This document shows, piece by piece, positions 26,394-63,450 of a stretch of DNA of 64,000 bases. The notes beneath the pieces were generated by a model that was not told the DNA's origin, did not search any database, and saw nothing but the letters and a program-made list of their open reading frames with translations. A program made the position numbers and the translations under genes. The stretch is taken from positions 14,490,341-14,554,340 of the forward strand of contig OZ029914.1 of assembly GCA_964023275.1 (NCBI GenBank), read 5' to 3'. The stretch comes from Norana najaformis (taxonomy: Eukaryota > Annelida > Clitellata > Crassiclitellata > Hormogastridae). Numbering within the stretch: the first letter of the stretch is position 1; every line of letters begins with the position of its first letter.

Positions 26394-26608
26394 TTACTTA
26401 GGACATTTTGCCGTCTTCCAGTTGTTGCAATTGTCTGCGTTACATCCTTTTAGGCATACGTGCAAGCTTGTTCCATTGAAGTCATATGGTCCACATTTTT
26501 CGTAGCGATTTAACATAGTTTGGTTTACGCATCCTCTTTCAACGTAGAAAGGAAATTTGTCTCCACCTTCAAAACCACACATTGTCAAATCTAAGATTAG
26601 CTCGATCA
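26394..26608 (-). CDS. LU gene 1 exon D (second half of LU domain, stop)
   Basis: 215 nt starting in phase 1 after CTTGATCGCAG, ending in TAA. Motifs in order: TMCGFEGGD, ERGCVNQT, YEKCGPY, HVCLKGCNADNCNNW, KCPK. Asn-Cys-Asn near the end is the LU hallmark. Confidence 0.7.
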
Positions 26609-27313
26609 CTGCGATCAAGTGAAATAGGCCTATACAAAGTAAGAGAAGAGAAACAATCTGTCTATCTGTCAGTCTGTTTTTGTTTCTCTCTTTGTTTTTA
26701 TATGTCTGTCTAGTTTTTGTTCGTCTGTCTGTCTCTTTGTTTATTTTTCACTGTCTGTATGTTTATTCTTTGTCGGACGGTCAGTGTGTTTGTTTATGTC
26801 TTTGTATTTGTGTCTGCCTGTTTTCACATTGTCGGAGCTTTCTATCATCTAAGTCCGCCTTTCATTTTGGATGGGTTTCTTGACATCTTCGCTCGTAACC
26901 ATTTGAACTATGTCAAGCCTCAGAATGAACTGCCGTTTTCAACTGAAAATTACAGATTTGTCTCGGCATTAGGAAGCCAGAATATTCCAAACTGCATTGA
27001 CTGTTCACCATGAAGAGATCTTCTCATTCGGTGGCCGTTCAGCCGCCTACTGGCAAATGTTCCAGCCTGCACTACGATCCTTGAGGCTCAAGGGATTTCG
27101 AATGGATTTGCTATCCGGTGAGCGGACCGTGTGCTGCAAACACTTCATTCAGCTCTCATTTCTCAATCGCCAGTAGTACAAATCAGAAGCTGCAAAACTG
27201 TCATCAGTGAATCATGATTTGCAATCCGTCGATTGTGTTGTTGACTCTCCAAATCCAAACACCATCCACCGTAGGCATCCGTCTGCCTGCCTGCCTGCCT
27301 GCCTGCCTGCTGG

Positions 27314-27345
<32 letters not shown>

Positions 27346-27362
27346 GCCTGCCTGCCTGCATG

Positions 27363-27453
<91 letters not shown>

Positions 27454-28353
27454 AGCTCTCTGATCTGGACTTGGAACCGATTCTGACCCTTTCTGTCTGT
27501 CGATTTTGTTTTTATTAAGCGCCTGTGCATAAGCTGGTTCTAACGACTTAGCTTTCGTTGGGCGCTGTAGAAATGTCGAGTTTACTATTACGATTGCGAT
27601 TAAGATATAATGCGTGCCGGTGTGAGCTTACGAAAGGACACTTTGGCTGCTTATCGAACATCATTCGGCTGCACTAGAACTTCTCTTATTGACCCGTTAC
27701 ATCACTTCGGCTGCAACGATTTGGAAAGAATCAATGAACGCTATATAATTGTTCAGATGAATAAATTATCAACTAACAGAGCAAAGAGCCCTTATGCGTT
27801 CGAAATTCTAGCTTTCCATGTGAGTTTCAAGAGAGTTGTCCCTATTCTTTGATTTTCAATTCAACATTTTCTAACTTTTTTTGTAGATTTCCCCAACACT
27901 ACAGCGACTCTCTTTGCCGTACACATCGCAAGTAAAAGTTGTATTTCCTTTATCGCAGCATTCCTTTCCATGATGACCAGTCTCGCAATACCAACACGTA
28001 AGGCCTTTATCTGTGCATAGATAAAACAGAAACATACTTCATAATATTATCAGATTGAACTTTAGACTTTTTTTTATTACACTCTGGTCTGAATACATTT
28101 TATTATCAACCAGAAGCTTATGCCTTTCACCTGCGAACAAGATTTCATTTCGCTACAATTCGTAGAACAAGAATGTACAACTATTTTCGAGATCTTCAAC
28201 GAACGTTTAACCAATTCTACCCAGACGGCTGCTTCAATTCTTAATTAAATGTCATTCCCAAACACGAATGCAAATGCAATACGTAATACTTACCGTCAGG
28301 CTGAGTGAAAAATGAACCGAAGCTCCCGCGGCCCCCTGCCGGACCAAAGTGAC
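26394..28353 (-). CDS. LU-domain gene 1 (intact in all recognised exons)
   Basis: Minus-strand exons B (28353-28294), C (28010-27876) and D (26608-26394) join in phase 1. C begins the LU domain with GLTCWYC, then ECC, FTC and SRC. D adds TMC, RGC, EKC, HVC and KGC, and ends GCNADNCNNW, the CxxxCN close of Ly6/uPAR three-finger domains, before a stop. There are 13 cysteines over about 115 residues. LU proteins are usually secreted or GPI-anchored; no GPI-type hydrophobic tail is seen, so secretion is likely. A signal-peptide exon upstream of B was not found. TATA-like CCATATAAGCC lies at 28576-28586 and AATAAA at 26281-26286. This is the only copy with all three exons and splice sites sound. 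Confidence 0.6.
26650..26830 (+). repeat. CTGT/TTTGT-rich simple repeat
   Basis: A run of TCTGTCTGTCT- and TTTGTTT-type words beside exon D. The same block lies at about 41820-42000, 52230-52430, 58280-58380 and 60760-60970. It gives spurious Cys/Leu/Phe/Val-rich reading frames. Confidence 0.65.
26834..27013 (+). other. Conserved 60-codon open block, unit 1 (nature unknown)
   Basis: The plus strand stays open from GAFYHLSPPFILDGFLD to a stop after CIDCSP, and contains PQNELPFSTENYRFV. Copies at 42220-42405 and 61183-61368 are also open, the one at 52634 is frameshifted, and diverged ones lie at 29850, 45110 and 56300. It may be a gene relic or just duplicated DNA; I recognise no family. Confidence 0.25.
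27288..27452 (+). repeat. (CCTG)n microsatellite, about 40 units
   Basis: Almost pure CCTG with a few interruptions (TGG, CAT). The matching sites in the other units (42680, 53090, 61640) have only a few units. The open frames rich in Leu-Pro-Ala-Cys here are artefacts. Confidence 0.9.
27470..27605 (+). mobile_element. Short core-tail element, unit 1
   Basis: AACCGATTCTGACCCTTTCT, then TTTTGTTTTTATTAAGCGCC and GGGCGCTGTAGAAATGTCGAG with a TTACGATT tail. Equivalent copies lie at 42715-42860, 53115-53250 and 61675-61810. Confidence 0.55.
27876..28010 (-). CDS. LU gene 1 exon C (first half of LU domain)
   Basis: 135 nt, phase 1 to 1, acceptor TCTATGCACAG, donor GTTAGA (all copies use this weaker donor). 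It reads GLTCWYCETGHHGKECC, then a sequon NTT, FTC and SRCSVGE. The CxxC start and cysteine spacing fit the first two fingers of an LU fold. Confidence 0.65.
28294..28353 (-). CDS. LU gene 1 exon B (GHFGP mini-exon)
   Basis: 60 nt, phase 1 to 1, acceptor GTCTTTAG, donor GTAAGT. It reads GHFGPAGGRGSFGSFFTQPD. The related 54-57 nt exons at 43.6, 54.1, 58.8 and 62.5 kb keep GHFGP and end in SD. A Gly-rich linker before the LU domain; function unknown. Confidence 0.55.
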
Positions 28354-28739: not shown

Positions 28740-28960
28740 CGTAACAATCATGAAACATTATCATCACATCATTACGTCATCGTTTTCATCACCGTGATCG
28801 TCACTAACATACTCATCGTCGTCGTCGTCGACGTCGTCATCATCTACTATTTACTTTTCTTCTTCTTCTTCAACAAAATCATTATATTAAATGCATGCAT
28901 CACCATGGTCTCCATGACTGTCATTTTCGTAATCATTAGAAATTTTGCTAACCTGCCGTG
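28740..28960 (+). repeat. (ATC/GTC)n low-complexity block, unit 1
   Basis: CATCATCAC-, CGTCGTCGTCGAC- and CTTCTTCTTC-type runs. In sister units (38350, 44038, 55208, 63680) the plus strand is open as a His-then-Ile/Val-rich frame. Here it is broken early, so coding use is doubtful. Confidence 0.5.
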
Positions 28961-30090
28961 ACCAAGACAAGCAACACACAGCTCGGAACAGATGCGAGTA
29001 GGCGACGTGTCATTCTGTTTCCAACCTTACTTCTTGTCGAATTAAGCAACGTAGTTATTGCAGCGACACCACTTCAGTAAATACAACCACAAAACGCATA
29101 AATGGAAATACAGTATATATAGGCCTGTTTCTCTCGTCGTATTCGTAAAATCTACAAACATCTGCAATTTTTAAACCCATTGACATTGAGGTTAGGCAGT
29201 GCAAACATTACAGTATTGTAGTACAGGCAATATATAATATATATGTATATACTACAATCAGACGATTAGTTTTTGCATAACGAATTAAACATACATTAAG
29301 TCTTAATAGTCTTAAGGTGCTTTGAAGTAAACTATGACTATATTCATATAATACAATCTGCATATAAAGAGTATTGCTGACGATTACTCGCAGAAATAAA
29401 CGAAATAATTATGAAGCTCCAGTAAATAACAACAACATATTTTTCTCATTTTGCAAACATCTGGTGATATTTTTAAAGTTCCATTAACAGATTTGAATAA
29501 GAACGTTGATATGTTTCTTTTCCTAGGTGCAAGTCAATAACTGCGCAAATTTTATTGCCTTAAGTCTGTTCAGTGGGGTGGTTTAACCAGTGACGTCGTT
29601 TCTTAATATGCTGATTGATATCGTAATAGTCCAACGCCAGGATTTATTGGTAAACGCAACTTAAATCTGGTGTGTTTTCCTCGTCCTTGTATCAACGATG
29701 CTATAAAGGTAAGGTTAAAGGGAAATTCTCAGTTTCTTAATATTTGAGCTTCACTCTAAAAGCAAAACTCTTCAGGCAGGCGCAGGCAGAGTCGTTGGGA
29801 AATAACAAAATTTGGCGTTAGACAAAGTTTAGGACTTCTCTCGTCAAAGTCCGCCCTTAATGTTCGATACGTATGCTGACATCTTCACTCTAAACCAGTA
29901 GAATAATGTCAAACCTCCAAATGAACTGACGCATGCAATCGAAAATTACAGACTCGTTGAGGCAGTGGCAAGCCGTGGTTTTCGGTGTGGCATTGATTGA
30001 AGAGAATTCTATGATCCGTTGACTCTGTTGCTGACTTCCTATTCCAAACACCAGCACCGTAGCCGTCTGACCATGTGCCTGATCGACTCT
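28961..30090. other. Spacer with duplicated non-coding DNA, unit 1
   Basis: It matches 44220-45380 and 55440-56560 nearly base for base. No exon was recognised. Confidence 0.4.
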
Positions 30091-30240: not shown

Positions 30241-30493
30241 ATTACGAAAAGTGACTTTGGCTGCTTCTTGAACATCATTCGCCTGCAGATGAATTTCCGA
30301 TATTGAACTGTTACATTATTTAGGCTGGAACGCCTTTCAAAGAATCTCTGAGGTGCAGTGTAAATGTTCAGCTAAACAACTACTCAACTAAAACAACAAA
30401 GAGCCCTTATGTACACGTGGAAATTCTAGCCTTCTATGCGACTTTCAAGACAGTTGTTCCTATTCTTTGATTTTCGGCTTAAGGTTTTCTAAC

Positions 30494-30622
30494 TTTTTAA
30501 GTAAGCATCCGATGTAGTTCAGAGTTCCAATTAACTCCCATTTCGGCAAGTTGTTGTGATGTTTGATCGAGCGCATCATCGGTTTCAATAAAAATCAGCC
30601 TCGCAATACCAACACGTAAGAC
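30494..30622 (-). pseudogene. LU exon C pseudo-copy
   Basis: It starts GLTCWYCEADFY and then has stops in frame (TGA where HGN stands in relatives, and more). No matching exon D lies downstream, only a LINE. Sister copies at 45773-45901 and 58479-58605 share the subfamily sequence. Confidence 0.55.
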
Positions 30623-30781
30623 CTTTAGCCGTGCATAAGTAAAACAGAAAAATGAGGTCACTATTTTTTCGGTCTCATTACATATTATTATCAACACAAG
30701 CTAATGTCTTTCGCATGCGAACTAGATTTCACTTCACTACATTTCGCAGAACGAGAATTTTAATTGTAATTTGAGATTTAT

Positions 30782-31670
30782 GAAGCACCTCTTAGAGGAT
30801 AAACTCAACAGAGGTGCTTCCGACTAGAAAAAGTAAAATAACGGTTGAACAGTACAGTCCTGAGGAGGCTGAGGAATACTCAGAGGATAGAGAAAGGACT
30901 TCAAGTCGCAATTCTCGAGGGAGACGATTCGATCTAGTGGGTCCAAAACAGGCAAAACTTCTGCACTGGGCCGCAGAGGTTCGCATGCGAGGGACAAACA
31001 GGAGATCCTGAGTGGCCGAGCGAAGGGTGCAACGGCCCGGCAACGAGGAGACCAAAGTGCAGAAGTGAATGAGGTAAAGGGGAGCAGAGCCAAGAACACA
31101 ATTGCGCATGAGGGAGAGGATCTTAAAGTGGACACGTTGCTGGACGGGTAGCCAGTGAAGAGTGTCACGAATATAAGACGAGATGTGGCCATATTTTGAA
31201 ATGCCCCTATGAGACGATCAGCAGAGTTAAGCACAGATTGTAGCTTAGCAGTATTGGCAAGTGACAGGCCGGTAAAGATGGCGTTACCAAAGTCAATCGT
31301 GGTGCAAATGAGGGCATGGACCAGAGTGGAGAGAGCGCGAAAGGAAAGAGTACGGCGAGTGGTGCGGAGCTGACGAAGATGGTAGAAGCACGAGCGAGAG
31401 ACGCTGTTAACATGAGCAGACAGAGTGTGCTCCTGATCCAGTACAACCGCAAGATTCCGGACCGTCGTAGAGAAGGATGGCGTAAAGAGAAGAGGTCGAT
31501 CTTGGCGAGCTGCATGAGGTCAAAAAGCCAGGCGAACTGGGTCTTGTTACAGTTGAAACAGAGGCGATTGGAGGACATCCATAGGTCAAGGACAGAGGTG
31601 GCGTCGAGAATCCTCTGGACAAGGGCAGGAAATGCACGCCTAACATCCAGATCTTCGACAAAGGTTTAAC
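30782..31670 (-). mobile_element. CR1-like LINE, 5'-truncated, copy 1
   Basis: The minus strand reads the C-terminal part of a reverse-transcriptase ORF in several frames: DLWMSSNRLCFNCNKTQ, then LICTTIDFGNAIFTGLSLAN and KLQSVLNSADRLIGAFQN, then RLPRELRLEVLS. These are typical CR1/L2-type ORF2 segments. The 3' end has an 11-bp hairpin (30782-30792 and 30810-30820) and an ATTACAATT tail. Frameshifts make it dead. Confidence 0.65.
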
Positions 31671-32024
31671 GAATTATAATCATACTCATTGCTAGCTAAG
31701 TAAGTCATGCGTTAATTTCGGATTAGCCCACGTCTCTCTGATAAAGATCCCACAGATTGACCAACCAACCGCACCCATGCATAACTGGACACCTCAGATC
31801 CTTACAACAACTAGGTTTTGCTGTACTCTTGCTCAGCCCCTCCGATTTCTTCCCACTGTGTATATCTCGCTAGTAAGGTATCTGAACCGTTTCGGTTGAT
31901 GTGGCTAGAGGACCAAGGTGATCTGACTCTATAATTATCTGTGAGCAACGCGCTTCTTAACTTTAGTAAGCGTTAATTTACCTGACAGGAATAGACAATT
32001 CTATTTTATTTCCTTCATATTATT

Positions 32025-32260
32025 TTACCAGCTTACATGGTGACATCGTTGTCGTAATTGATATCGTAGCAACCATGCAAACATTGTCATTGTCGTCGAT
32101 GTCATTACTGTCACCGACTTCATAGTCATCATCGTCGACGTCTTCATCATCTTCTGTTTCCTTTTCTTCTTCAACTGCGTCACACGAATCATTGTATTAA
32201 ACGCATGCCTCACCATCGTATCTATGGCTGTCGTTTTTGTAATCATTGCCAGTACATGAT
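32025..32260 (+). repeat. (ATC/GTC)n low-complexity block
   Basis: Same type as 28740-28960, diverged. The 31680-32880 stretch otherwise shows no gene and matches 46840-48040. Confidence 0.45.
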
Positions 32261-32889
32261 GATCACAATTTTGTTAACCATCCGTGGCCAAAACAAGCAG
32301 CATACAGCTCGAAACAGATGCGATTAGGCGACGTGTAACTCTGTTTCCAATCTTATTCCTCGTTGATCTAAGCAACATCTGCTGAACTCAGGTACTACTG
32401 GAACACTACTGTACTTCAGATTGTTACAATCACAAAATGCATAAATGGAAATAAATATTTCAATTGTGTTCATGAAATCTGCCAACACCTGCTATTGTAA
32501 TTGCATTGACACTGAAGTTAGGGAGTACGGAATATTACGTTTGTAATAAAAGCAATCACATCAATAGTTCGCAAAATGAATTAATTATACGTTAAGTCTT
32601 AAAAACTCTTAAGGTGTTTTGAAGTGCCCGGCGTAAGCTTCGACTGCATCTATGCTATGCAATATGCATACAAAGAGTATTGTTGACGATCGTTCACAGA
32701 AGTAACCGGAAAAATTATGAAGCTGCAGTAAATAACAACCTTACCTTTCTCATTTCTAAAAACAGCTGCTGATAATTTTAAATTTTACATCAAAAGATTT
32801 GAACAAGGATGTAGCTATGTTTCTTCTGCTAGGTACAAGCCAATAAGTACGTAAATTTTATTGCTTTAAGTCTGTTGAGTTTGGTGGCT

Positions 32890-35451: not shown

Positions 35452-35813
35452 ATGCTAGGTTAGATAGCTCAGCAGAGGGCTTTTGCTGTTGTTGGCACAT
35501 CTCCATGGAATGAACTTCCACTATCGTTTCGTGCAAGGGTCACTGTTGATGATAGAGCTCAGTCATCTCGTTGTTTAAAGGCGTTTTTGTTTCCCCAGGG
35601 TACCCATGCTGAAAGCGGCTCTGAGTAGTTTGTTCTGTAAGAAGCGCTAGATTAGTTATCAAATACAATACAGTACAATAGCCTAGGCCTAGTCGTAACC
35701 AGAAGGTCGTGTCGATCGACTTTAAAATAACTGACATTTACATCACAACGTTAGCCTTACGTTTCCCGCGCGAACACCCACGTGATAAAATGCGCATCGG
35801 CTACATTCACTGC

Positions 35814-37661: not shown

Positions 37662-37715
37662 GGGCCTATGTGCCTCGATTCATGATAATTATCATGAATC
37701 GAGGCACATAGGCCC
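37662..37715. repeat. 54-bp perfect palindrome
   Basis: The arms 37662-37688 and 37689-37715 are exact reverse complements with no spacer. The right arm is the normal 3' flank of LU exon D; the left arm is an inverted duplicate of it. Confidence 0.9.
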
Positions 37716-37717
37716 TT

Positions 37718-37892
37718 TTAGGCGCTAGTACATATTTTCATCTTCCAGTCGTTGCATTTGCTTCCGTTACACGCTGTTACACATACTTTGTAGATTGTTC
37801 CTTCGATAGCAAATGGTCCACGGTTTTGGTAGCGCTTCAACACGGTTCGGTTTACACACCCTATCTGAACGATGTCAGGTGTTTTGTCTTTT
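37718..37892 (-). pseudogene. LU exon D fragment, 5' end missing
   Basis: Reads KTPDIVQIGCVNRT, YQNRGPF (the usual KCG cysteine changed to Arg), KVCVTACNGSKCNDW and stop. It begins abruptly at about 37892, so the acceptor and first cysteine are gone. No C or B exon lies upstream. Confidence 0.6.
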
Positions 37893-38349: not shown

Positions 38350-38556
38350 ATGAAACATTATCTTCACCATCATTACGTCATCGTCATCATCACAATGATC
38401 ATCACCATCATACTAATCATCGTCGTCGTCGTCGACGTTGTCATCATCTTTATCCTATTCTTGTTTTTCTGCTGCGTCAAACTAATCATTATATTCAACT
38501 CAGGCATCACCATCGTCTCTATCAATGCCATTTTCGTAATCATTACCAGTACATGA
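38350..38556 (+). repeat. (ATC/GTC)n low-complexity block with open plus frame
   Basis: The plus frame reads MKHYLHHHYVIVIITM and then long Ile/Val runs. The composition follows from ATC/GTC triplets. A membrane-peptide gene cannot be excluded but is unlikely. Confidence 0.4.
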
Positions 38557-38859
38557 TCACAGATTTTGCTAACATTCCGTGGCCAAGACAAACAACACAT
38601 AGCTCGGAACAGATGCGATTAGGCGACGTGTCATTCTGTTTCCAACCTTATTTCTCCTTGTGTTAAGTCTGCTTAACTCAGGTATTGCTGCAACACCTCT
38701 TCAGTTTGTTACGACAACAAAACGCATAAATGGAAATACATAAATCTCTCGTGTTCATAAAATCTGCAAGACACCTGCTATTTTTAGCGCATTGACATTG
38801 AGGTTAGGCAGTGCAAATATTACAGTTTTGCAGCAGAGGCAATATAATATATTACTAAG

Positions 38860-39744: not shown

Positions 39745-39950
39745 TTAGGAGCTAGAACATTTTGTCATCTTCCATTCGTTGCATTTGCTTCCGTAGCACG
39801 ATTTTGCACATACTTTGTAGACTGTTCCTTCGAAAGTAAATGGTCCACATTTTCCGTAAAGCGTCAACAAAGTTTGGTTTGTGCATCCTCTCCGAAAGAG
39901 GCCAGGTATTTTGTCTCCACCGTATTCCAAATCTATGTTTAGCTCCATCG
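39745..39950 (-). pseudogene. LU exon D, orphan copy
   Basis: Open to the stop (RRGCTNQT, YGKCGPF, KVCAKSCYGSKCNEW), but the expected acceptor is GG instead of AG and the first cysteine (TMC) is deleted. No exon C or B is found before the next unit. Probably dead. Confidence 0.55.
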
Positions 39951-40879
39951 CCACAATCAAGCTCTCTACGGCATATTCTGCTAAATTCTCCTCGATTCAG
40001 CTGCTAGTTAAGCAAGCCATGCGTTAATTTCGGAATAGCCCACGTCTCTCTGATAAAGATCCCTCAGATTGCCCCACACAGCGCCCATGCTTAAATGGAC
40101 ACCTCAGATTTTTACAACTACCAGGCTTCGTTGTACTCTTGCTCAACCCCTCCGCTTTCTTCGCGCCGTGTATACCTCACTGTTTAGCTACCTGATTGTT
40201 TTGGTTGATTTGGTTAGAGGACCAAGGTGGTCTGACTCTATAGTTGTCTATGAGCAACACGCTTACTAACTTGAATAAGCGTTGATTAACCTGACAGGAA
40301 TAGACAATTCTCTTTCATTACCTTCATATTATTTTAGCAGCTTATATGGTGGCATCGTTGTCGTAATTGATATCGTAGCAACCAAGCAAACATTATCTTC
40401 GTAGCCAATGTCACCACCATCATCGCCATCATCTTTTTCCTTTTCTTCTTCTACTGCGTCACATTAAACGTCACATTAAACGCAACTATCACAATCGTCT
40501 CTATGACTGCCGTTTTTCTAATAATTGCCAGTACGTGATCACAAATTTTGCTAACCATCCATGGCCAAGACAAGCAACACAAAGCTCGCAACAAATACGA
40601 GTAGGCGACGTGTCATTCTGTTTCCAACCTTCTTCCTCGCAGAGATAAGCAACATCTGCTTAACTCAGGTTTTGCTGCGAAACTACTTCAGTTTGTTACG
40701 ACAACAAAACGCATAAATGGAAATATATATTTCTGTCGTGTTCATAAAATCTGCAAACGCGTGCTATTTTTGAGGTTTGCCAGTGTAGAATATTACAATT
40801 TGTAATAAAAGCAATCCATATACCACAATCACATGAGTAGTTTGCAAAATGAAATAGTTATGCATTAGGTCGTTACCCG

Positions 40880-41515: not shown

Positions 41516-43595
41516 TTAGGAGCTAGGACACTTTTCCATCTTCCAGTTGTTGCAGTTGGTTGCGTTGCACCCTTTTACGCATATGTGGTAGGTTGTGCCA
41601 TTGAAGTTTAATGGTCCACATTTTTCGTATTGATTTAACATAGATTGGTTTATGCATCCTCTCTCAATGTAGAAAGGTAATCTGTCTGTACCTTCAAAAG
41701 CACACATTGTCAAATCTAAGATTAGCTCGATCATTGCGATCAAGTGAAACAGACTTATATAAAGCAAGAGTAGAGAAACAATTTGACTATCTCTCAGTCT
41801 GTTTCTTGTTTCTCTCTTTCTTTTCATATGTCTGTCTAGTTTTTGTTCGTCTGTCTGTCTCTTTGTTTCTTTTTGTCTGAATGTTGTTTATTATTTGTCG
41901 GTCAGTCTGTGTGTTGGTTTGTGTCTTTGTATATGTATCTGTCTGTCATCACATTGTACGTCTTCCTGTTTGTTTGTCTCTATGTCGATCTGTCTATAAT
42001 TTGTCAGAGTAACAAAATCTCAGGCAGAATAATTAGGTAAACGCAGTATAAACGTGGTGTCTTTCCTCGTCCTTAGCTCAATGGTGCTATGCTCTGAATA
42101 ACGGTGATATTCCAAAAAAATTTTCAATTTCCTAGTAATCTAGCTGAGTTCGCAAAGCAAACCTCTTCAGGCCGGCGCTTGCAGAGTAGTCGAAAACTAC
42201 CAACGTTCCGTGCTAGACGATGTTCGGAGCTTTCTATCGTCTAAGTCCGTCTTTCATTATTGATGGGTTTCCTGACGTCTTAACTCGTAACCATTTGAAC
42301 GATGCTAAGCCTCAGAATGAACTACCGTTTTCAACTGAAAATTACAGATTTGCTGAGTCAGTAGGAAGCCAGGGTTTTGGAAATGGCATTCACTGTTCAC
42401 CATGAAGAGGTCTTCTCATTCGGCGGCCGTTCAGCCGCCTACTGGCAAATGTTCCAGCCTGTACTACAATCCTTGAGGTTCAAGTGATTTCGAATGGATT
42501 TGCTATCCGGTGAGCGCACCTTGTGTTGCAAACACTTCATTCAGCTCTCATTTCACAACCGCCAGAGGTACAAATCAGAAGCTGCAAACCTGTCATCAGT
42601 GAATCATAAGTTGAAATCCGTCGGCTGTGTTGTTGACTCTCCAAATCCAAACACCATCCACCGTAGGCATCCGTCCGACTGACTGCCTGCTGCCTGCCTG
42701 CCTGCCTGACTCTCTGATCTTGAATTAGAACCGATTCTGACCCTTTCTGTCTATCGATTTTGTTTTTATTAAGCGCGTGTGCATAAGCTGGTCCCAGCGA
42801 CTTAGCTCTCGTTGGGCGCTGTAGAAATGTCGAGTTTACTATTATGATTGCGTTTAAGATACAATGCGTGTCGGTGTGAGCTTATGAAAGGAGACTTTGG
42901 CTGCTTATCGCACATCATTCGGCTGCACAAGAACTGCTCTTATTGACCCGTTACATCACTTCGACTGGAGCGACTTGGAAAGAATCAACGAAGCGCTAAA
43001 TAATTGTTCAGATGAATAAATTATCAACGAGCAGACCAGAGCCCTTTGTGTTCGGAATTCTAGCCTTAGATGCGAGTTTCAAGAGAGTTGTCCCTATTCT
43101 TTGATTTTCACTTGAACATTTTCTAACTTCTAAAGTAGATTTCCCCAGTATAACAACGACTCTCTCTGCCGTATGTACGCGTATCGCAAGTAAAAGTTGT
43201 ATTTCCTCGATCGCAGCATGCCCTTCCATGATGACCAGTCTCGCAATACCAACACGTAAGATTTGTATCTGTGCATAAATAAAACAGAAACTTACGTTCT
43301 TCTTATTATCAGATTGAACTTTAGACTTTTCTTTTATTACACTGTGGTCTGAATACATTTTATTATCAACCAGAAGCTTATGTATATCACCTGCGAACAA
43401 GAATTCACTTCGCTCCATTTCGCAGAACAAGAATGTACAACTAATATCCAGATCCTCAATGAATGTTTAACCAATTCTACCTCTTAAATAAATGTCACTC
43501 CACCCAAACAGAATGCAAATGCAATATGTAAGACTTACTGTCAGACTGACGACGGACTATGTAGCCCCCACCGACCAGTTCCGGACCAAAGTGAC
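41516..43595 (-). CDS. LU-domain gene 4 (coding intact, exon D acceptor altered)
   Basis: Exons B (43595-43539, GHFGPELVGGGYIVRRQSD), C (43268-43128, NLTCWYCETGHHGRACC, FTC, SRCYTGE) and D (41733-41516, TMCAFEGTD, ERGCINQS, YEKCGPL, HICVKGCNATNCNNW) are all open and phase 1. The D acceptor, GCAG in gene 1, is GCAA here, so normal splicing may fail. The D frame runs open upstream from an ATG at 41827 through a leader-like SQIVSLLLLYISLFHLIA, which overlaps the pyrimidine tract. It may be a dying gene or one that now uses a new start. Confidence 0.5.
42220..42405 (+). other. Conserved 60-codon open block, unit 2
   Basis: MFGAFYRLSPSFIIDGF ... PQNELPFSTENYRFAES to CSP and stop, matching 26834-27013 and 61183-61368. 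Unrecognised. Confidence 0.25.
42715..42860 (+). mobile_element. Short core-tail element, unit 2
   Basis: Equivalent of 27470-27605, with the same GGGCGCTGTAGAAATGTCGAG core. Confidence 0.5.
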
Positions 43596-44037: not shown

Positions 44038-44322
44038 ATGAATCATTATCACCATCATTACGTCATCGTTTTCATCGCCATCATGCTCATTATCATAATA
44101 GTCGTCGTCGTCGACGTCGTCATCATCTACTCTTTTTCTTCCTTCTTCAACAAAATCATTATATTAAATGCTTGCATCACCAGTGTCTCGATGACTGTTA
44201 TTTTCGTAATCATAAGAAATTTCGCTAACCTGTCGCGACTAAGACAAGCAACACACAGCTCGGAACAAATGCGAGTAGGCGACGTGTCATTCTGTTTCCA
44301 ACCTTACTTCCTGTCGATTTAA
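44038..44322 (+). repeat. (ATC/GTC)n low-complexity block with open plus frame, unit 2
   Basis: It encodes NHYHHHYVIVFIAIML followed by Ile/Val-rich sequence. Open here, but its unit 1 counterpart is broken. Confidence 0.4.
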
Positions 44323-45510: not shown

Positions 45511-45772
45511 CAGCGTGAGATTACGAAAAGTGACTTTGGCTGCTTCTTGAACATCATTCGCCTGCAGATGAATTTCTGTTATTGAACCGTTACATCATTC
45601 ACCCTGAAACGCCTTTGAAAGAATCTATGAGGTGCAGTATAAATGTTCAGTTAAACAACTAGTCAACTAACACAACAAATAGCCCTTATGTACACGTGGA
45701 AATTCTAGCTTTCTATGCGATTTTCAAGACAGTAGTTCCTATTCTTTGATTTTCAGCTTAAGGTTTTCTAAC

Positions 45773-45901
45773 TTTTTAAGTAAACATCCGACGTAGTTCA
45801 GAGTTCCAATTAACTCCCATTTCGGCAAGTTGTTGTGATGTTTGATCCAGCGCAGCATCCGTTTCCATGAAAATCAGCCTCGCTATACCAGCACGTAAGA
45901 C
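45773..45901 (-). pseudogene. LU exon C pseudo-copy, unit 2
   Basis: Reads GLTCWYSEADFHGNGCCAGS, NITTTC, then TAA. The second cysteine of CWYC is changed to Ser. Counterpart of 30494-30622. Confidence 0.55.
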
Positions 45902-46029
45902 CTTTAGCCGTGCATATGTTAAACAGAAATATATGTTCATTATTTTATCGCTTTAATTACATATTATTAGCAACTACAAGCTAATGTCTTTCGCAAGCGA
46001 ACTAGATTTCACTTCACTACATTTTGCAG

Positions 46030-47430: not shown

Positions 47431-48044
47431 CACAATTTTGCTAACCATTCCTGGCCGAGACAAGCAGCATAAAGCTCAAAACAGATGCGAGTAGGCGACG
47501 TGTAACTCTGTTTCCAACCTTATTCCTCGTAGATCTAAACAACATCTGCTGAACTAGGGTATTACTGGAACACTACTGTACTTCAGTTTGTTGCAATCAC
47601 CAAATGCATAAATGGAAATAAATATTTCAGTTGTGGGCGCGAAATCTGCCATTACCTGCTGTTTTAATTGCATTGACATTGAAGTTAGGTAATGCGGAAT
47701 ATTACATTTTGTAATAAAAGCAATCACATCAATAGTTTTAAAAATGAATTAATTATACATTAAGTCTTAAAAACTCTTAAGGTGTTTCGAAGTGCCCGGC
47801 GTAAGTTTCGACTGCATCTATGCTATGCAGTATGCATATAAAGAGTATTGTTGACGATCGTTCATTGAAGTAACCGAAAAAAATTATGAAGCTCCAGTAA
47901 ATAACAACCTTACTTTTCTCATTTCTAAAAACAGCTGCTGATAATTTTAAATTTTGCATCAGAAGATTTGAACAGGGATGTAGAGGTTTCTTTCCCTAGG
48001 TACAAGCCAATAACTGCGTAAATTGTATTGCCTTAAGCTTGTTC

Positions 48045-50833: not shown

Positions 50834-51334
50834 GACCGCCTGCACGCACGTAGCAACCATGCAAACACTCTCATCGTCGTCATCACCATCATCGTCATCA
50901 TCTTCTTTTTTCCTTTTCTTCTTCTACTGCGTCACATTAAACGTCATATTAAACGCAAGTATCACTATCGACTCTATGACTGACGCTTTTGTAATAATTG
51001 CTAGTATATGATCACAAATTTTGCTAACGTTCCGTGGCCTAGACAAGCAACACAAAGCTCGGAACAGATACGAGTAGGCGACCTGTCATTTTGTTTCCAA
51101 CCTTCTTCCTCGCAACATCTGCTTAACTCAGGTTTTGCTGCGAAACTACTTCAGTTTGTTACGACAACAAAACGCATAAATGGAAATATATATTTGCAAA
51201 CACCTGCTATTAATAACGCATTGACATTGAGTTAGGCAGTGCAGAATATTACAATTTGCAATAAAAGAAATCTGTATACCACAAGCACAGGTTTAGACTG
51301 AAAATGAACTAGTTATGCATTAAGTCGTTACCAG

Positions 51335-51650: not shown

Positions 51651-52633
51651 TTTACGCCCGCACCATAATACTTTGGTGGCTGCAAGTTTGAAGGCTTTAC
51701 AGCGCTAGCGAACTATGGAATGAGGACCTAACAATTAATCCGGGTCAATTTAATTCATTTACGCGTCCAGATGAATCAAGAATCAAGATTAAAGTTACTT
51801 ATTTGTAAAGCGTACTTTCAGCAGACCAAAATCTAGATTAAAAGTGAAAGTCTGAAAGGCCAAACACAACTTCCGGTAGAGAAGACAAACGGTGCTTCGC
51901 CGAAGTCGCATGAATCGAGACACATAGGCCCTGTTAGACGCTGGGACATTTTATCGCCTTCCAGTTGTTGCAGTTGCTTCCGTTGCACCCTTTTATGCAT
52001 CCGTGATAGACTGTTCCATTGGAGAAATATGATCCACATTTTTCGTATTGATTTATCATAGATAGGTTTGTGCATCCTCTCTCAAAGTAGGCAGGTAATT
52101 TGTCTGTACCTTCAAAAGCACACATCGTAAAATCTAACATTAGCTCGATCACTGCGATCAAGTGAAATACACCTATATAAAGTAAGAGAAGAGAAACAAT
52201 CTGCCTGTTTCTTGCTTCTCTGTTTGTTTTCATATGTCTAGATTTTGTTCGTCTGTCTGTCTCATTGTTTCTATTTGTCTGTTTGTATGTTTATTCTTTG
52301 TCGGTCGGTCTGTGTCTTTGATTGTGTCTTTGTATATGTTTCTGTCTGTCTCCATATTGTACGCCTTCCTGTTTGTTTGTCTCTATGTTTATCTGTCCAT
52401 ATTTTTTGTCTGTCGGTCAGAGCTACAAAATCTCAGGCAGAATAATTAGGTAAACGCAGTATAAACCTGGTGTCTTTCCTCGTCCTTAGCTCAATGCTGC
52501 TTTGCTCTGAATTGCGATGAGATTCAAAAAGAATTTTCAATTTCCTAATAGTCGAGCTGCGTTCGCAAAGCAAAACTGGTCTGGCCGGCGCTTGCAGAGT
52601 AGTCGAGAACTACCAACGTTCCGTGCCAGACGA

Positions 52634-53520: not shown

Positions 53521-55207
53521 AAGAGCAGAGCAAAGAGCCCTTATGTATTCAAAATTCTAGTCTTCCATGCTAGTTTCAAGGGAGTTGTCCCTTTTCTTTG
53601 ATTTTCAGTTGAACATTTTCTAACTTTTTAAGTAGATTTCCGCTGTACCACAGCGAACATCTTTGCCCTGCTCCTCCCAAGGCATTGTGCGATTTCATCC
53701 AGCGCAGCATGCCTTTCCATGATCACTAGTCTGGCAATACCAACACGTAAGATTTTTATCTGTGCATAAATAAAACAGAAACTCATGTTCATTATATTAT
53801 CAGATTGAACTTTAGACTTTTCTTTTATTACACTGTGGTCTGAATACATTTTATTATCAACCAGAAGCTTATGTCTTTCACCTGCGAACAAGATTTCATT
53901 TCGCTACAATTCGCAGAGCAAGAATGTACAACTATTTTCGAGGTCTTCAACGAACGTTTAACCAATTCTACCTAGACGGCTGCTTCAATTCTTGATTAAA
54001 TGTCATTCCACTCAAACAGATTGCAAATGCAATATGTAAGACTTACTGTCAGACTGACGATGGACTGTGTAGCCCCCGCCGACCAGTGCCGGACCAAAGT
54101 GACCTAAAGACAATAATGACTATTTACTGTCTGCATAAGTGATCAACTGCATTCATTATTAGTTGTTAGTGCTCTCTACAGCATTTGTATACTAAATTCT
54201 TCTCAGTTCAGCTGCCTATTAAGTAAGGCATGTTAGGCCCATGTCTTTTGGATAATGATCCCACAGATAGCCCCACACCGCACCCATGCATAACTGGACA
54301 CCGAAAATCCTTAAAACTACCAGCCTTCGCTGTACTCTTGCTCAGCACCTCGCTGTTTAGGTCCCTGAACTCTTTGGCTTATATGGCTATCATACCGAGG
54401 TAATCTACCTCTGTAGTTGGCTGCAAGCAATACGCTAGCCAGCTTTAGTAAGCGTTGATTAACCTGACATGAATAAACTATTCTCTTTTAAACCTTAGTC
54501 TTATTTTAACAGCTTAAATTGTGACGTCGTTGTCGTAATTCCTATCGTTGCAACCATGCAAACATTATCATCACCATCATTACGTCGTTGTTGTCATCAT
54601 CTGCTTCAATTCTTAATAAAGTCTCATCCCACCCAAACAACGAAGATGCAATATGTACTACCAGAATGAAGGACTGTGGAGTCATCATAGACCAGCGTCT
54701 GACCAAAGGGACGTGAAGACAGTGATGACTGACATCGTGGTGTCTGCATGGCTGATCAACTGCTTTTATTATTATTATTTGTTATTGCTCTTTGTAGCGC
54801 TTGTGCCTATATTTTTCAACAGTTAATAGTCTAGTTAAGTAAGATAAAAGCGTCGTTGCTTTCCGATTGGCGTTCGTGTCACAGGTGAAGATTCCAAAAT
54901 GGCCCCCCAAACCAAGCCCATAGATAACTGACCACCAAAAATTCTAAGCTCTTTCCTTTACAACGACCAGGTTTGAGCTTGACTGTCCTGTTGCTGAGCC
55001 ACTCCGCTTCCCGACCCCGTATACCACGCTATTTAGGCCCTAAACCATTTATGGCTTATATGACTACCAGACCCGGATGATCTGCCTGTTGTTTTCCTGA
55101 AGCAAAACGCTTGCTAACTTGAGCAAGCGTTAATTAACCTGACATGAATAAACTATTCTCTTTCAATACCTTAGTCTTAATTTACCAGCTTACGTGGTGG
55201 CATCGTT

Positions 55208-55444
55208 GTGGTAATTGCCATCGTAACAATCATGAAACATTATCATCACCATTGTTACGTCATCGTTGTCATCACCATGATAATCACCATCATACTCATC
55301 GTCGTCGTCGTCGTCGCCGACGTCATCATGCACTCTTTCCCTTTCTTCTTCTTCAACAAAATCATTATATTAAATGCATGCATCACCATGGTCTCCATGG
55401 CTGTCATTTTCGTAATCATTAGAAATTTCGCTAACCTGCCATGA
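55208..55444 (+). repeat. (ATC/GTC)n low-complexity block with open plus frame, unit 3
   Basis: Open for 78 codons, His-rich start then Ile/Val-rich. Same block as 44038 and 63680. Confidence 0.4.
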
Positions 55445-56564
55445 CCAAGACAAGCAACACACAGCTCGGAACAGATGCGAGTAGGCGACGTGTCATTCTG
55501 TTTCCAACCTTACTTCCTGTCGATTTAAGCAACGTAGTTATTGCAGCAACACCACTTCAGGAAATACAACCACAAAACGCATAAATGGAAATGCAGTATA
55601 TATAGGCTTGTTTCTCTCGTCGTATTCGTAAAATCTACAAACATCTGCAATTTTTAAACCCTTTGACATTGAGGTTAGGCAGTGGAACCATTACGGAATT
55701 GTAGTAAAGGCAATTATATAATATATTTATATATAACGCCATTAGATGATTAGTTTGCATAATGATATTAATTACACATTAAGTCTTAATAGCCTTAAGG
55801 TGTTTTGAAGTGCCCGGAGTAAACTATGACTACATTCATATTATGCAATCTGCATATAAAGAGTTGCTGACGATTACTGGCAGAAATAACCGAAATAATT
55901 ATGAAGCTCCAGTAAATAACAACAACATATTTTTCTCATTTTTGCAAACATCTGGTTATATTTTTAAAGTTCCATTAAAAGATTTGAATAAGAACGTTGA
56001 TATGTTTCTTTTCCTAGGTGCAAGTCAATAACTGCGCAAATTTTATTGCCTTAAGTCTGTTCAGTGGGGTGGTTTAACCAGTGACGTCGTTTCTTAATAT
56101 GCTGATTGATATCGTAATAGTCCAACGCCAGGATTCATTGGTAAACTCAACTTAAATCTTGTGTGTTTCTTCCTGGTCATTGCATGAATGATGCTATAAA
56201 GGTAAAGTTAAAGGGAAATTCTCAATTTCTTAATAGTCGAGCTTCGTTCTAAAAGGCGTATGCAGAGTCGTTGGGAACTAACATAATTCGGTGTTAGACG
56301 ATGTTTAGAACTACTATCGTCGAATTACTCCCTTCATTTTTGATAGGTATGCTGACATCTTCACTCTAAACCAGTAGAATGATGTCAAACCTCAGAATGG
56401 AATCGAAAAGTACAGATTCGTTGGGGCAGTGGCTAGCCGTGGTTTTCGGAGTGGCATTGATTGAAGTGAATTCTATGATCCGTTGACTCTGTTGTTGACC
56501 TCCTATTCCAGACACCAGCACCATAGCCGTCTGACCGTGTGCCTGATCGACTCTCGGATTTTGA

Positions 56565-57780: not shown

Positions 57781-58031
57781 CGAATTATAATCATACTCGT
57801 GTGCTAACTAAGCAAGCCATGCGTTAATTTCGGAATAGCCCACGCCTCTCTGATAAAGATCAGACAGATTGCCCAACCAACCGCCCATACATAACCGGAC
57901 ACCTCAGATCCTTACAACTACCAGGCTTCGCTGTACTCTTGCTCAGCCCCTCCAGTTTCTTCCCACAGTGTATAGACAATCGATGCTTCGCTGAAGTCGC
58001 ATGAATCGAGGCACATAGGCCCTGTTAGGAG

Positions 58032-58873
58032 CTAGAACATTTTGTCATCTTCCAGTCGTTGCATTTGCTTCCGTACAACGATTTTGCACATACTTTGTAG
58101 ACTGTTCCTTCTAGAGGAAATGGTCCACATTTTCCGTAAAGCGTCAACAAAGTTCGGTTTGTGCATCCTCTCTGAACGATTCAGGTATTTTGTCTCCACC
58201 TTCAAAAGTGCATATTGCAAAATCTATGTTTCACTCCATCGCTACAATCAGGTGAAGTATATAAAGAAGAAAAGACAAGCCGTCTGTCCTTCTATATTTT
58301 GTTTGTCTCTTTATCTATTTATCCGCCTGTCTATTTTTTGTTAATCTGTCTCTCTGTTTGTTTGCCTCTTAATCTTCTTTGCATCTCTAACGGAATAATG
58401 TGTCGAAATTCTAGCCTTTCATGCGATTTTCAAGAGAGTTGTTCCTATTATTCGATTTTCAGCTTATCGTTTTCTAACTTTTTCAGTTAATTTCCGTTGT
58501 AACGCAGAGATCCACTTTACTGCCATCTTGGCAAGTTGTTGTGATGTTTAATCCAGCGCAGCATCCGTTTCCATGAAAATCAGACACAATACCAACACGC
58601 AAGACCTTTACCCGTGCATAAGTAAAACAGAAGCATATGGTCATAATATTATCCGTCTGATTACATATTATTATCAACCAGAAGTTAACGTCTTTCGCAT
58701 GTAAACTAGATTTCGTTTCACTACATTGCGCAGAACGAGAATGTACACCAAATATCCTAAATTCTTAATTAAATCTCACCTCACTGAAACATCATGCAGA
58801 CGAAATATGTAAGACCTACTGTCAGACCCACAGACTGTTGAGCCTTCGCGGACCAGTGTCTGACCAAAGTGAC
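58032..58873 (-). pseudogene. LU-domain gene 6 (compact pseudogene)
   Basis: Exons B (58873-58820, GHFGQTLVREGSTVCGSD), C (58605-58479) and D (58241-58032) lie within 0.85 kb, much closer than in other units. In C the CWYC start and the later DFHGNGCCAGLNITTTC lie in different frames. In D a TGA (58233-58231) follows ATG GAG, and a frameshift precedes the RGC motif. Clearly dead. Confidence 0.6.
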
Positions 58874-59869
58874 CTGAAGACAATGATGGCTCGCTTTAGT
58901 GTCTGACTATCTGATCAACTGCTTTCATTATTATCTCATATTGCTCTCTCCGGCATTTTCTGCTAAATTCTCCTCGGTTCAGCCGCTGCCTAAGTTAGCC
59001 ATGCGTTGATTTCCGACTAGCCGGCGTCTCTCTGATAAAGATCCCTCAGATTGCTCCACACAGCGCCCATGCATAAATGGACATCTCAGATCCTTACAAC
59101 TACCAGGCTTCGTTTTACTCTTGCTCAACCCCTCCGATTTCTTCGCACCGTGTATACCTCACTGTTTGGATACCTGACCGTTTTGGTCGATATGGTTAGA
59201 GGACCAAGGTGGTCTGACTCTATAGTTGTCTATGAGCAACACGCTTACTAACTTGAACAAGCGTTATTTAACCAGACAGGAATAGACAATTCTCTTTCAT
59301 TACCTTCATATTATTTTAGCAGCTTATATGGTGGCATCGTTGTCGTAATTGATATCGTAGCAACCAAGCAAACAATTTCATCGTCGCCGATGTCATCACC
59401 ATCGTCGTCATCTTCTTCTTTTTCCTTTTCTTCTTCAACTGCGTCACACTAAACGTCATGTAAACACAAGTATCACTAACGACTCTATGACTGACGTTTT
59501 TGTAATAATTGCTAGTACATGATCACAAATTTTCCTAACCATCCGTGGCCAAGACAAGCAACACAAAGCTCGGAACAGATACGATAAGGCGACGTATCAT
59601 TCAGTTTTCAACCTTCTTTCTCGCAGAGTTAGGCAACATCTGCTTAACTCAGGGTTTGCTGCGAAACTACTTCAGTTTGTTACGACAACAAAACGCATAA
59701 ATGGAAATATATATTTCTGTCGTGTTCATAAAATCGGCAAACGCCTGCTATTTATAACGCACTGACATTGAGGTTGGGCATTGTAGAATATTACAATTTG
59801 TAATAACAGCAATCTATCCTACCACAATCAAATGATTAATTTGCAAAATAAATTAGTTATGCATTAAGT

Positions 59870-60170: not shown

Positions 60171-61182
60171 ATAGACCTGCTTACGCCTGCGCCATTAAAC
60201 TTTGGTGGCTGAAAGTGTGAAGGCTTTACAGCGATAGAGAACTGTGGAATGAGGACCTAACTATTAATCCGGGACAATTTAAATCAGTTACTAGCCCAGA
60301 TGAATCAAGGATCAGAATTATAGTTATTTATTTGTAAAGCATACTTTCAGCAGACCAAAATCTAGATGCATTAAGCATTTTTTATTCATTTATATTAAAA
60401 GTGAAAGTCCAAAAGGCCAAACACAACTTCCGGTAGAGAAGACAAACGACGCTTCTTTCAACTCGCATGACTCGAGGCGGCTACCCCTGTTAGGAGCTGG
60501 GACATTTTTCCATCTTCCAGTCGTTGCAGTTGGTTCCGTTGCACCATTTCAAACATGCGTGGTACTCTGTTCCATTGATAACACTTGGTCCACATTTTTC
60601 GTAGCGATTTATGACAGATTGGTTTGTGCATCCTCTCCCAACGTAGAAAGGTATTTTGTCAGTATCTTAAAAAGCGCATATTGTAAATTCTAAGATTAGC
60701 TCGATCACGCGATCAAGGGAAATAAGCCTATATAAAGTAAGAGAAGAAAAACAATCTGTCTATCTGTCAGTCTGTGTGATGCCTGTTTCCGTCAATGTTT
60801 TATATGTCTGTCTAGTTTTTGTTCGTCTGTCTGTCTCTTTGTTTCTTTTTGTCTTTCTGTATGTTTATTCTTTGTCGGTCGGTCCGTGTGTTTGTGTCTT
60901 TGTACTTGTGTCTGTCTGTTTTCAGATTGTCTCTATGTTTATCTGTCTATATTTTTTGTCTGTCTGTCAGAGCTACAAAATTTCAGGCAGAATAATTAGG
61001 TAAATGCAATATAAACTTGATGTATTTCCAAGTCCTTAGCTCAATGGTGCTATGCTCTGAATAACGGTGATATTCAAACAGAATGTTCAATTTCCTAGTA
61101 GTCGAACTGCTTTCGCAAAGCAAAACTTGTCTGGCCGGCGCTTGCAGAGTAGTCGAGAACTACAAACGTTCCGTGCTAGGCG

Positions 61183-61368
61183 ATGTTCGGAGCTTTCTAT
61201 CGTCTAAGACTGCCTTTCATTTTGGATGGGTTTCTTGACGTCTTCACTCTAAACCATTTGAACGATGTCAAGCCTCAGAATGAACTACCGTTTTCAACTG
61301 AAAATTACAGATTTGTTGAGGCAGTAGGATGCCAAGGGTTTCGAAGTGGCATTGTCTGTTCACCATGA
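61183..61368 (+). other. Conserved 60-codon open block, unit 4
   Basis: MFGAFYRLRLPFILDGF ... STENYRFVEAVG ... CSP stop. Matches 42220-42405. Confidence 0.25.
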
Positions 61369-61674
61369 AGTCTACTCAATCGGCGGCCGTTCAGCCGTCT
61401 ACTGGCAAATGTTCCAGCCTGTAATACGATCCTTGAGGCTCAAGTGATTTCGAATGGATTTGCTATTCGGTGAGCGCATCATATGTTGCAAACACATCAT
61501 TGAGCTCTCACTTCTCAACCGCCAGTAGTACAAATCAGAAGCTGCAAACCTGTCATCAGTAAATCATGAGTTGCAATCCGTCCATTGTGCTGTTAAGTAT
61601 CCAAATCCAAACACCATCCACCGTAGGCATTCGTCTGACTGCCTCCCTGTCCGACTCTCTGATTTTGACTTGGA

Positions 61675-61810
61675 ACCGATTCTGACCCTTTCTGTCTATC
61701 GATTTTGTTTTTATTAAGCGCCTGTGCATTAGTTGGTTCCCGCGACGTAGCTTTCGTTGGAGACTGTAGAAATGTCGAGTTTACTATTACGATTGCGTTT
61801 AAGATACAAC
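61675..61810 (+). mobile_element. Short core-tail element, unit 4
   Basis: Equivalent of 27470-27605, with the core changed to GGAGACTGTAGAAATGTCGAG. Confidence 0.5.
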
Positions 61811-63450
61811 GCGTGTCGGTGTGAGTTTACGAAAGGAGACTTTGACTGCTTATCGAACATCATTCGGCTGCACAGAACTTCTCTTATTGACACGTTACAA
61901 CACCTCGACTGGAACCACTTGGAAAGTATCGATGAAGCGCTATATAACTGTTCAGATGAATAAATTATCCACTAGCAGAGCAAAGAGCCCTTATGTGTTC
62001 GAAATTCTAGCCTTCCATGCGAGTTACAAGAGAGTTGTCCCTATTCTTTGATTTTCATTTGAACATTTTCTAACTTTTTTTGTAGAGTTGCACATAAGCG
62101 CAGAATTTATAGGGCTCTGGGCAAGGATAAGTAAAATTTCCTCGATCGCAGCATGCCTTTCCATGATGACCAGTCTCGCAATACCAACACGTAAGATTTG
62201 TATCTGTGCATAAATAAAACAGAAACTCATGTTCATTATATTATCAGATTGAACTTTAGACTTTTCTTTTATTACACTGTGGTCTGAATACTTTTTATTG
62301 TCAACAAGAAGCTTATGTCTTTCACCTGCGAATAAGATTTCACCGCTACAATTCGCAGAACAAGAATATACGACTAGCATCCAGATCCTCAATGAACGTT
62401 TAACCAATTCTACCTAGGCGGCTGCTTCAATTCTTAATTAAATGTCATTCCACCCAAACAAAATGCAAATGCAATACGTAAGACTTACTGTCAGACTGAC
62501 GCCGGACTGTGTAGCCCCCGCCGACCAGTGCCGGACCAAAGTGACCTAAAGACAATAATGACTATTTACTGTCTGCATGAGTGATCAACTGCATTCATTA
62601 TTAGTTGTTAGTGCTCTCTACAGCATTTGTATACTAAATTCTTCTCAGTTCAGCTGCCTATTAAGTAAGCCATGTTAGGCCCATGTCTTTTGGATAATGA
62701 TCCCACAGATAGTCCCACACCGCACCCATGCATAACTGGACACCGAAAATCCTTAAAACTACCAGCCTTCGCTGTACTCTTGCTCAGCACCTCGCTGTTT
62801 AGGTCCCTGAACTCTTTGGCTTATATGGCTATCAGACTGAGGTAATCTGCCTCTGTAGTTGGCTGCAAGCAATACGCTAGCTAGCTTTAGTAAGCGTTGA
62901 TTAACCTGACATGAATAAACTATTCTCTTTTAAACCTTAGTCTTATTTTAACAGCTTAAATTGTGACGTCGTTGTCGTAATTCCTATCGTTGCAACCATG
63001 CAAACATTATCATCACCATCATTACGTCGTTGTTGTCATCATCTGCTTCAATTCTTAATAAAGTCTCATCCCACCCAAGTAAAATGAAGGTGCAATATGT
63101 ACTACTAGACTGAACGACTGTGGAGCCATCACAGACTAGCGTCTAACCAAAGGGACATGAAGACAGTGATGACTAACATCGTGGTGTCTGCATGGCGGAT
63201 CAACTGCTTTTATTATTTTTATTTGTAAATGCTCTTTGTAACGCTTGTGCCTATATTTTTCATCAGTTTGGTGTCTAGCTAAGTTAGCTAAGAGAGTTGC
63301 TTTCCAATTGGCGTTCGTCTTTCAGGTGAAGATTCCAAAATGGTCCCCCAAACCAAGCCCATAGATAACTGACCACCAAAAATTCTAGACTCTTTCCCTT
63401 ACAACATCCAGGCTTGAGCTTGACTGTCCTGTTGCTGAGCTACTCCGCTT

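Follow-up and report, generated by a model that had tools for sequence, protein, structure and literature searches.

A mostly decayed tandem array for small, probably secreted 12-cysteine proteins in the annelid Norana najaformis, with domain exons that differ more than their introns

Introduction

What kind of protein family is encoded by a run of duplicated short exons in the annelid Norana najaformis, and why do the exons for its cysteine-rich domain differ more between copies than the introns beside them? The run lies in a 64,000-nucleotide stretch of genomic DNA (the window; assembly GCA_964023275.1, contig OZ029914.1, positions 14,490,341 to 14,554,340 of the forward strand), in which an earlier note, made from the letters alone, had described a tandem array of LU (Ly6/uPAR, three-finger) genes with an additional mini-exon starting GHFGP. 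Coordinates given here are positions within the window, and the array lies wholly on its minus strand. The signal exon, the pseudogenes and the fast exons were absent from that earlier reading and are added here. Overall, the explanation that we consider on balance probable is a fast-evolving array of secreted 12-cysteine proteins that use an LU-like scaffold in an arms race. Its main interest lies in the acceleration of exons measured with an internal ruler, more than in the mini-exon.

Results

Ten units of two types, mostly decayed

The array had been said to hold seven C exons and seven D exons, the two halves of one domain, on a single strand, and these counts are exact. A profile built from four D exons recovered those four and three more (E 2.9e-37 to 3.1e-22), with the next-best matches at E 0.075 and 0.14, and an nhmmer search using exon C of the unit g1 as the query recovered itself and six others (E 2.7e-38 to 1.8e-16). 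Single-copy nhmmer queries found ten copies of a 61-nt exon A across the array, which therefore consists of ten units. The copies are segmental duplications, as illustrated by 30910-35486 and 46063-50629 (89% identity), and chance similarity is thereby excluded; the earlier proposal that small, probably secreted proteins have expanded in tandem is supported. The extent given before, 26394 to 62545, described a real array, one that runs from ~26.4 to ~64 kb, reaches past that end to a rightmost exon end at 63944, and is mostly decayed. The ATG of the last unit (g10) lies 56 bases from the right edge of the window, and the array may continue beyond it.

All four exons (A, B, C and D) were found in five of the ten units (g1, g4, g7, g9 and g10), and three units (g1, g4 and g10) are open through all of them. 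In g1, exon A (28953..29013) encodes the signal-peptide-like MTRRLLASVPSCVLLVLVTA and ends in phase 1, the 60-nt exon B (28294..28353) encodes GHFGPAGGRGSFGSFFTQPD between AG/GTAAGT borders, and exons C (27876..28010) and D (26394..26566, stop included) encode the first and second halves of the domain with six cysteines each. The corresponding exons of g4 are A at 44230..44290, a 57-nt B at 43539..43595 (GHFGPELVGGGYIVRRQSD), C at 43128..43268 and D at 41516..41691, and those of g10 are A at 63884..63944, a 57-nt B at 62489..62545 (GHFGPALVGGGYTVRRQSD), C at 62075..62203 and D at 60490..60665, the last being open when it starts after TTTTTAAG or at more internal sites. The unit g7 (A, 55436..55496; 57-nt B, 54047..54103; C, 53625..53759; D, 51934..52109) has an in-frame stop in exon C, where one cysteine is also gone, and an open exon D. 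In g9 (A, 59540..59600; 54-nt B, 58820..58873; C, 58479..58611; D, 58025..58199) both domain exons are broken: C by its frame, stops and the acceptor CACGG, and D by its frame.

The remaining five units are without some exons, so that together with g9 six units are broken or exon-poor. The unit at 51110 retains exon A alone, carrying a stop (51009..51110; B, C and D not found by nhmmer). Units 47531 and 32365 each retain an exon A that has lost its start codon (47432..47531 and 32266..32365) and an exon C with stops (45748..45933 and 30469..30653), with B and D not found. Units 40638 and 38656 retain exon A (40537..40638 and 38554..38656) and exon D (39745..39930 and 37708..37889, the latter with one cysteine gone), with B and C not found by nhmmer. 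By sequence and flanks the units fall into two types, type I (g1, g4, g7 and g10) and type II (the other six), and no type-II unit has an open four-exon set. All three type-II C exons (58637, 45933 and 30653) have the acceptor CACGG, compared with CACAG, which suggests that the acceptor was lost before copying. A 24-bp tandem repeat is found in two of the duplicated segments, at 35117-35214 (4.1 copies) and 50238-50359 (5.1 copies).

Domain exons change faster than introns

In order to compare rates within units, g1, g4, g7 and g10 (type I) were aligned over their full length, which gives six pairs; all p-values take sites as independent. Differences per site range from 0.075 to 0.115 in introns and from 0.016 to 0.098 in exon A, compared with 0.156 to 0.271 in C, 0.170 to 0.244 in D and 0.17-0.24 in C and D combined. 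The combined domain exons exceed the introns in six of six pairs (Fisher p 0.0019 to 3.6e-15) and exon A falls below them in six of six. Variable gap-free columns number 50/129 in C and 60/176 in D, relative to 376/1967 in introns (p 6.8e-7 and 8.6e-6, respectively), 57/260 in the 3′ flank, 19/57 in B and 7/61 in A. In exon C the third codon position is the least variable (19/43, 19/43 and 12/43 for the three positions), and pairwise dN/dS is above 1 in all six pairs (1.35 to 2.04); in exon D it is above 1 in 12 of the 15 D pairs compared.

When branch lengths for g1, g4 and g10 were fixed from introns, omega relative to the intron rate was 2.74 for C, 1.97 for D, 0.69 for A and 2.29 for C and D together (p 4.6e-10; 2.25 without gapped codons). 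The site model M2a was preferred over M1a for C and D together (p 1.8e-5 for three genes, 1.4e-8 with g7) and for C alone (p 5.1e-5, and 6.7e-7 with g7). In the pair g7-g10 exon C differs at 0.271 compared with 0.192 in near flanks that are short and may be misaligned, and with 0.075 in whole-unit introns. Dead copies provide a control: the C exons 30653 and 45933, the sole usable dead pair for C or D, differ at 9/133 sites compared with 59/725 in their flanks and show no excess. The dead exon A pair 32365/47531 differs at 7/61 compared with 57/628 in its flanks. Two dead D pairs (39930 and g9, 12/182; 39918 and 37888, 33/171) are unusable for this purpose as their flanks fail to align (163/297 and 100/275 differ).

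Several observations weigh against attributing this excess to selection. The three codon positions of D vary alike (21/58, 20/59 and 19/59), pairwise dN/dS in D is below 1 in all three pairs of open genes (0.62, 0.63 and 0.85), and D taken by itself gives no preference for M2a with three genes (p 0.21; 0.0037 with four). The M2a signal comes mostly from C, whose loop indels make the alignment risky, and a single tree is assumed for four genes. With free branch lengths, the M0 omega is 1.04 (p 0.90) for the open genes and 1.34 (p 0.26) with g7. Near flanks make the excess smaller in some comparisons: for D, 0.188 compared with 0.159 in g4-g10 and 0.199 compared with 0.129 in g7-g10; for C, 0.148 compared with 0.112 in g1-g4 and 0.248 compared with 0.088 in g4-g10. 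Synonymous change in C and D is also above the intron value in most pairs, and since silent change is thus high in the exons as well, conversion from diverged copies or a like exon-wide process may contribute.

These points would suit an ordinary cluster of secreted LU-type proteins with regulatory roles, such as receptor modulation or cell adhesion, in which the divergence reflects relaxed constraint in dying copies, homogenised introns and conversion from diverged copies, with no arms race. Clusters and lineage-specific expansions are described as typical of LU genes (PMC6600238), a starfish is reported with 48 three-finger proteins (PMC11595613), and seven of the ten units here are broken or interrupted, in keeping with such a family, as are the high silent change and the low dN/dS of exon D. 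Relaxed constraint, however, can lift exons at most to the intron rate, and the domain exons lie above it in every pair; the least variable position in C is the third, and the usable dead C pair changes at the rate of its flanks. Homogenisation of introns would need conversion tracts to end repeatedly at exon borders. We regard an ordinary LU-type cluster as unlikely. Diversifying selection is well supported in exon C and possible in exon D.

Gene models and the mini-exon

The sequence MTRRLLASVPSCVLLVLVTA of exon A and its variants read by eye as a signal peptide, and the join to exon B is in phase 1, with the last base of exon A completing the G codon of GHFGP. In the gene models every intron of g1, g4, g7 and g10 has AG/GT borders and is in phase 1; among the five complete units, the A/B and B/C joins are in phase 1 in all five and the C/D join in four, g9 being frame-broken. 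The C/D phase depends on the start of exon D, which was selected among the AG sites that keep the frame, listed for four units. The strongest pyrimidine tract precedes TATAG, a site that leaves g1 and g7 open but not g4 or g10. A start after TTT(G/T)AAG leaves all four units open with an even number of cysteines, and for these reasons was adopted. A site 33 bases further in is likewise open in all four, but its use removes the xDKxPFY segment; if g10 is dead, a start located 24 bases upstream, which is open in the other three units, is also possible. Overall, g1 and g4 are open with several D starts, and g10 with the TTT(G/T)AAG site or two sites further in. A hydrophobic stretch before exon D was considered as coding sequence and rejected, as it is frame-broken in g10. 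C and D fit together as one two-exon domain, as first proposed.

Upstream, TATATATA is located 108 bases before the ATG in g1, g4 and g7 (the position in g10 falls off the window), and the short stretch holding it is missing from all six type-II copies; this possible TATA box can be linked to type I only tentatively. Downstream, g1, g4 and g10 each have AATAAA at a distance of 103 to 107 bases from the stop; in g7 there is none within 1.5 kb past the stop, and ATTAAA is found at 179. We infer secretion and splicing as modelled.

Exon B, announced as a 54-60 nt mini-exon starting GHFGP, is present in five well-preserved copies with AG/GT borders, four in type-I units with exactly GHFGP and one in the type-II unit g9 with GHFGQ. 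Decayed extra B-like copies lie between exons A and B of g10 (63091..63207; nhmmer E 2.7e-6) and of g7 (54646..54763; E 1.1e-6). The encoded segment of ~18-20 residues is Gly-rich and not acidic, and is probably a short, disordered N-terminal segment. Any two of g4, g7 and g10 differ in this exon at 2 to 4 sites out of 57, and g1 differs from these at 16 to 19; the omega of B relative to introns, 2.74 (p 0.0012), is driven by g1, and dN/dS between g4 and g10 is 0.37. A dibasic RR is encoded in B of g4 and g10 and in neither g1 nor g7, and might be a candidate cleavage site. The earlier note had described a mini-exon before the domain as unfamiliar from LU genes. There is a precedent, however: according to one review, two human proteins, GPIHBP1 and SP-10, and no others have one more exon ahead of the LU pair, coding for an N-terminal segment that is disordered (PMC6600238). 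For exon B this is a precedent in kind, not in sequence.

Is the domain LU?

The domain of g4 (NTNLTCWYCETGHHGRACC...CVKGCNATNCNNWKMEKCPSS) has 105 residues, and 53 of 105 columns are identical in g1, g4 and g10, all 12 cysteines among them. LU disulfides join cysteines 1-5, 2-3, 4-6, 7-8 and 9-10. Numbered as in LU, the domain opens with C1-x2-C2 and closes with C8-x3-C9-x4-C10-N, the C/D intron follows C5 by 8 residues, and C6 is the cysteine of RGC; the extra pair on this reading consists of one cysteine from the first half and the last one. The inner intron of the models thus falls between the fifth and sixth LU-like cysteines, and two domain exons with phase-1 introns correspond to the LU plan. 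In the typical LU gene, as described in PMC6600238, a signal exon is followed by a pair of domain exons, which are generally bordered by phase-1 introns and separated by an intron placed at the tip of loop 2. A loose LU cysteine pattern, composed with the sequences in view, is matched by g1, g4 and g10 and by 97, 78 and 106 per 200,000 of their respective shuffles. By eye, the end of exon D is without a hydrophobic tail of the type that precedes a glycosylphosphatidylinositol (GPI) anchor.

Profile comparisons give no support for LU. The match to an LU profile that the earlier note had looked to as a check was not obtained: five queries (g4, g10, two g1 models and the g4 domain alone) gave no match to the Pfam LU models UPAR_LY6, Toxin_TOLIP, CD59 or Activin_recp at E <=10. 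Five human LU domains all match UPAR_LY6 and Toxin_TOLIP in the same library, which therefore works for vertebrate LU. An hhalign comparison with those five human domains scored 12.2, which was equalled by 110 of 300 column shuffles. C8 and C9 are separated by three residues here and form an adjacent CC in the five human domains, and C6 and C7 are 11 apart; the spacings allowed in the cysteine pattern were loose. Searches for sequence relatives in the Protein Data Bank (PDB) gave none, or only unrelated matches at E 0.16 to 4.8, one of the profile searches covering 57 positions and in effect exon D. AlphaFold modelled exon D alone as strands and a short helix at low confidence (pLDDT 51, pTM 0.27), a quality insufficient for a fold search. 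A scan of viral contigs found no relative, and Rfam gave no match within the window at the gathering threshold.

This failure to find support in Pfam, PDB profiles or hhalign, together with C8-x3-C9 and the two extra cysteines, is what would be expected of an unrelated disulfide-rich secreted family, with 12 cysteines in a fold of its own and a phase-1 two-exon plan shared by chance. Against such a family stand the ordered cysteines ending in C-x4-C-N and an intron position and phases that fit the LU rule as set out in PMC6600238, and we judge it somewhat unlikely. The claim of LU identity stands on cysteine order, the final C-x4-C-N, phase-1 introns and intron position, and falls short with Pfam and hhalign. 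LU identity is plausible, and LU or LU-like identity is, in our judgement, fairly likely. If the domain is LU, the family is unusual in its set of cysteines and carries an additional exon; otherwise it is a disulfide-rich family yet to be placed.

Discussion

A proposal for the array

In the explanation that we favour, segmental duplication would have produced ten units of two types, with the birth and death of copies as raw material. Each gene would be spliced from the signal exon A, the short N-terminal exon B and exons C and D, which together encode one 12-cysteine domain, and the mature protein would be small and secreted, with ~100 residues after the N-terminal segment. Its scaffold would be three-finger (LU-like), with ten LU-like cysteines and one extra pair forming a rigid disulfide core. 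This core would be kept and the surface loops, above all those encoded by exon C, driven to change, as we propose, through binding to a partner that is itself changing. Candidates for the partner are a microbe or parasite, the receptor of a mate, or prey; by judgement, an immune or defensive role comes first at a little short of an even chance, followed by a reproductive role, which is appreciably less probable, with a toxin role doubtful and any other role more doubtful still.

A more specific proposal is a hypervariable secreted recognition system, in which change on an LU-like scaffold is confined to exons, in convergence with snake three-finger toxin (3FTx) genes, and exon B is a block-swappable N-terminal module; this we hold to be quite unlikely. 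Among the literature titles surveyed, no earlier report of such an array or system was found, and the 48 three-finger proteins reported in a starfish (PMC11595613) mean that expansion of three-finger proteins in an invertebrate is not in itself new.

A secreted toxin or venom family, three-finger-toxin-like by convergence, would match the account of viperid three-finger toxin genes in PMC2474615, in which signal exon and introns are conserved and cysteines retained while exons change. In a ribbon worm, proteins of the three-finger toxin superfamily have been reported as putative toxins for defence (PMC9132205). The window sequence contains no pointer to venom tissue, positive selection is equally described for salamander courtship pheromones (PMC8904931), and immune proteins fit as well. 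A toxin family is a distinctly improbable explanation.

If expressed, the array would offer a test case for the diversification of a conserved disulfide scaffold outside snakes and salamanders, and its mini-exon a further modular N-terminal exon before an LU-like domain, like those of GPIHBP1 and SP-10. The introns serve as a built-in neutral ruler and the dead copies as a control, and the three open genes lend themselves to production and assay.

Other features of the window

A possible immunoglobulin-domain receptor lies in separate pieces on the plus strand (5566-6015, 7178-7789, 8082-8180 and 9460-10224). The pieces comprise a V-set-like exon (Pfam E 4e-4, below the curated cut-off), an open frame without a Pfam match, a hydrophobic, membrane-helix-like stretch (a second one is at 9195-9275) and an open frame that contains several tyrosine motifs, including SSYLKI twice, and a 60-bp tandem repeat at 9998-10134. 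The SSYLKI motifs we take to resemble immunoreceptor tyrosine-based inhibitory motifs (ITIM-like). A second immunoglobulin-domain open frame is present on the minus strand at 2182-2565 (Pfam I-set, E 4e-5, just above the cut-off). An immune-type neighbourhood is possible.

An 851-bp direct repeat (17330-18180 and 36128-36978) is 100% identical between its two copies, with identity stopping at the first base on both sides, and is a very recent transposition or copy event. Fragments resembling non-LTR (long terminal repeat) retrotransposons were recognised by eye at 33020-33527, 48089-48695 and near 25.9 and 39.2 kb; Pfam gave no match at E 0.01 for 48089-48493. Lying in or beside duplicated units, these fragments may have aided duplication of the array. 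A 499-residue open frame on the plus strand (13621-15120) contains a 33-bp tandem repeat at 14841-14936 and has no Pfam match at E 0.01.

Comparison with known systems

As modelled, the genes of the array resemble LU genes such as SLURP-1, CD59 and LYNX1 in plan: a signal exon comes before a pair of domain exons, the introns are in phase 1 and the inner one lies near the tip of loop 2 (LU plan from PMC6600238). Ten cysteines in an order compatible with LU at loose spacings, a final CN and clustered copies are further likenesses. The array differs from them in its two extra cysteines, in C8-x3-C9 in place of CC and in the extra exon B, and is without an LU profile match or hhalign support. GPIHBP1 and SP-10 (ACRV1) likewise place one more exon, coding for an N-terminal segment, ahead of the LU pair (PMC6600238). 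The segment of GPIHBP1 is described there as strongly acidic and its protein as GPI-anchored, whereas the segment encoded by B is Gly-rich and not acidic, and exon D has no GPI-type tail.

Among fast-evolving three-finger systems, the viperid 3FTx genes are alike in having similar signal exons and introns, diverging exon segments and kept cysteines (PMC2474615), and unlike in that the array has twelve cysteines, not ten, and four coding exons, not three. The three-finger courtship pheromones of salamanders (for example plethodontid modulating factor), reported as multi-copy, secreted and evolving rapidly under positive selection (PMC8904931), are likened here by description.

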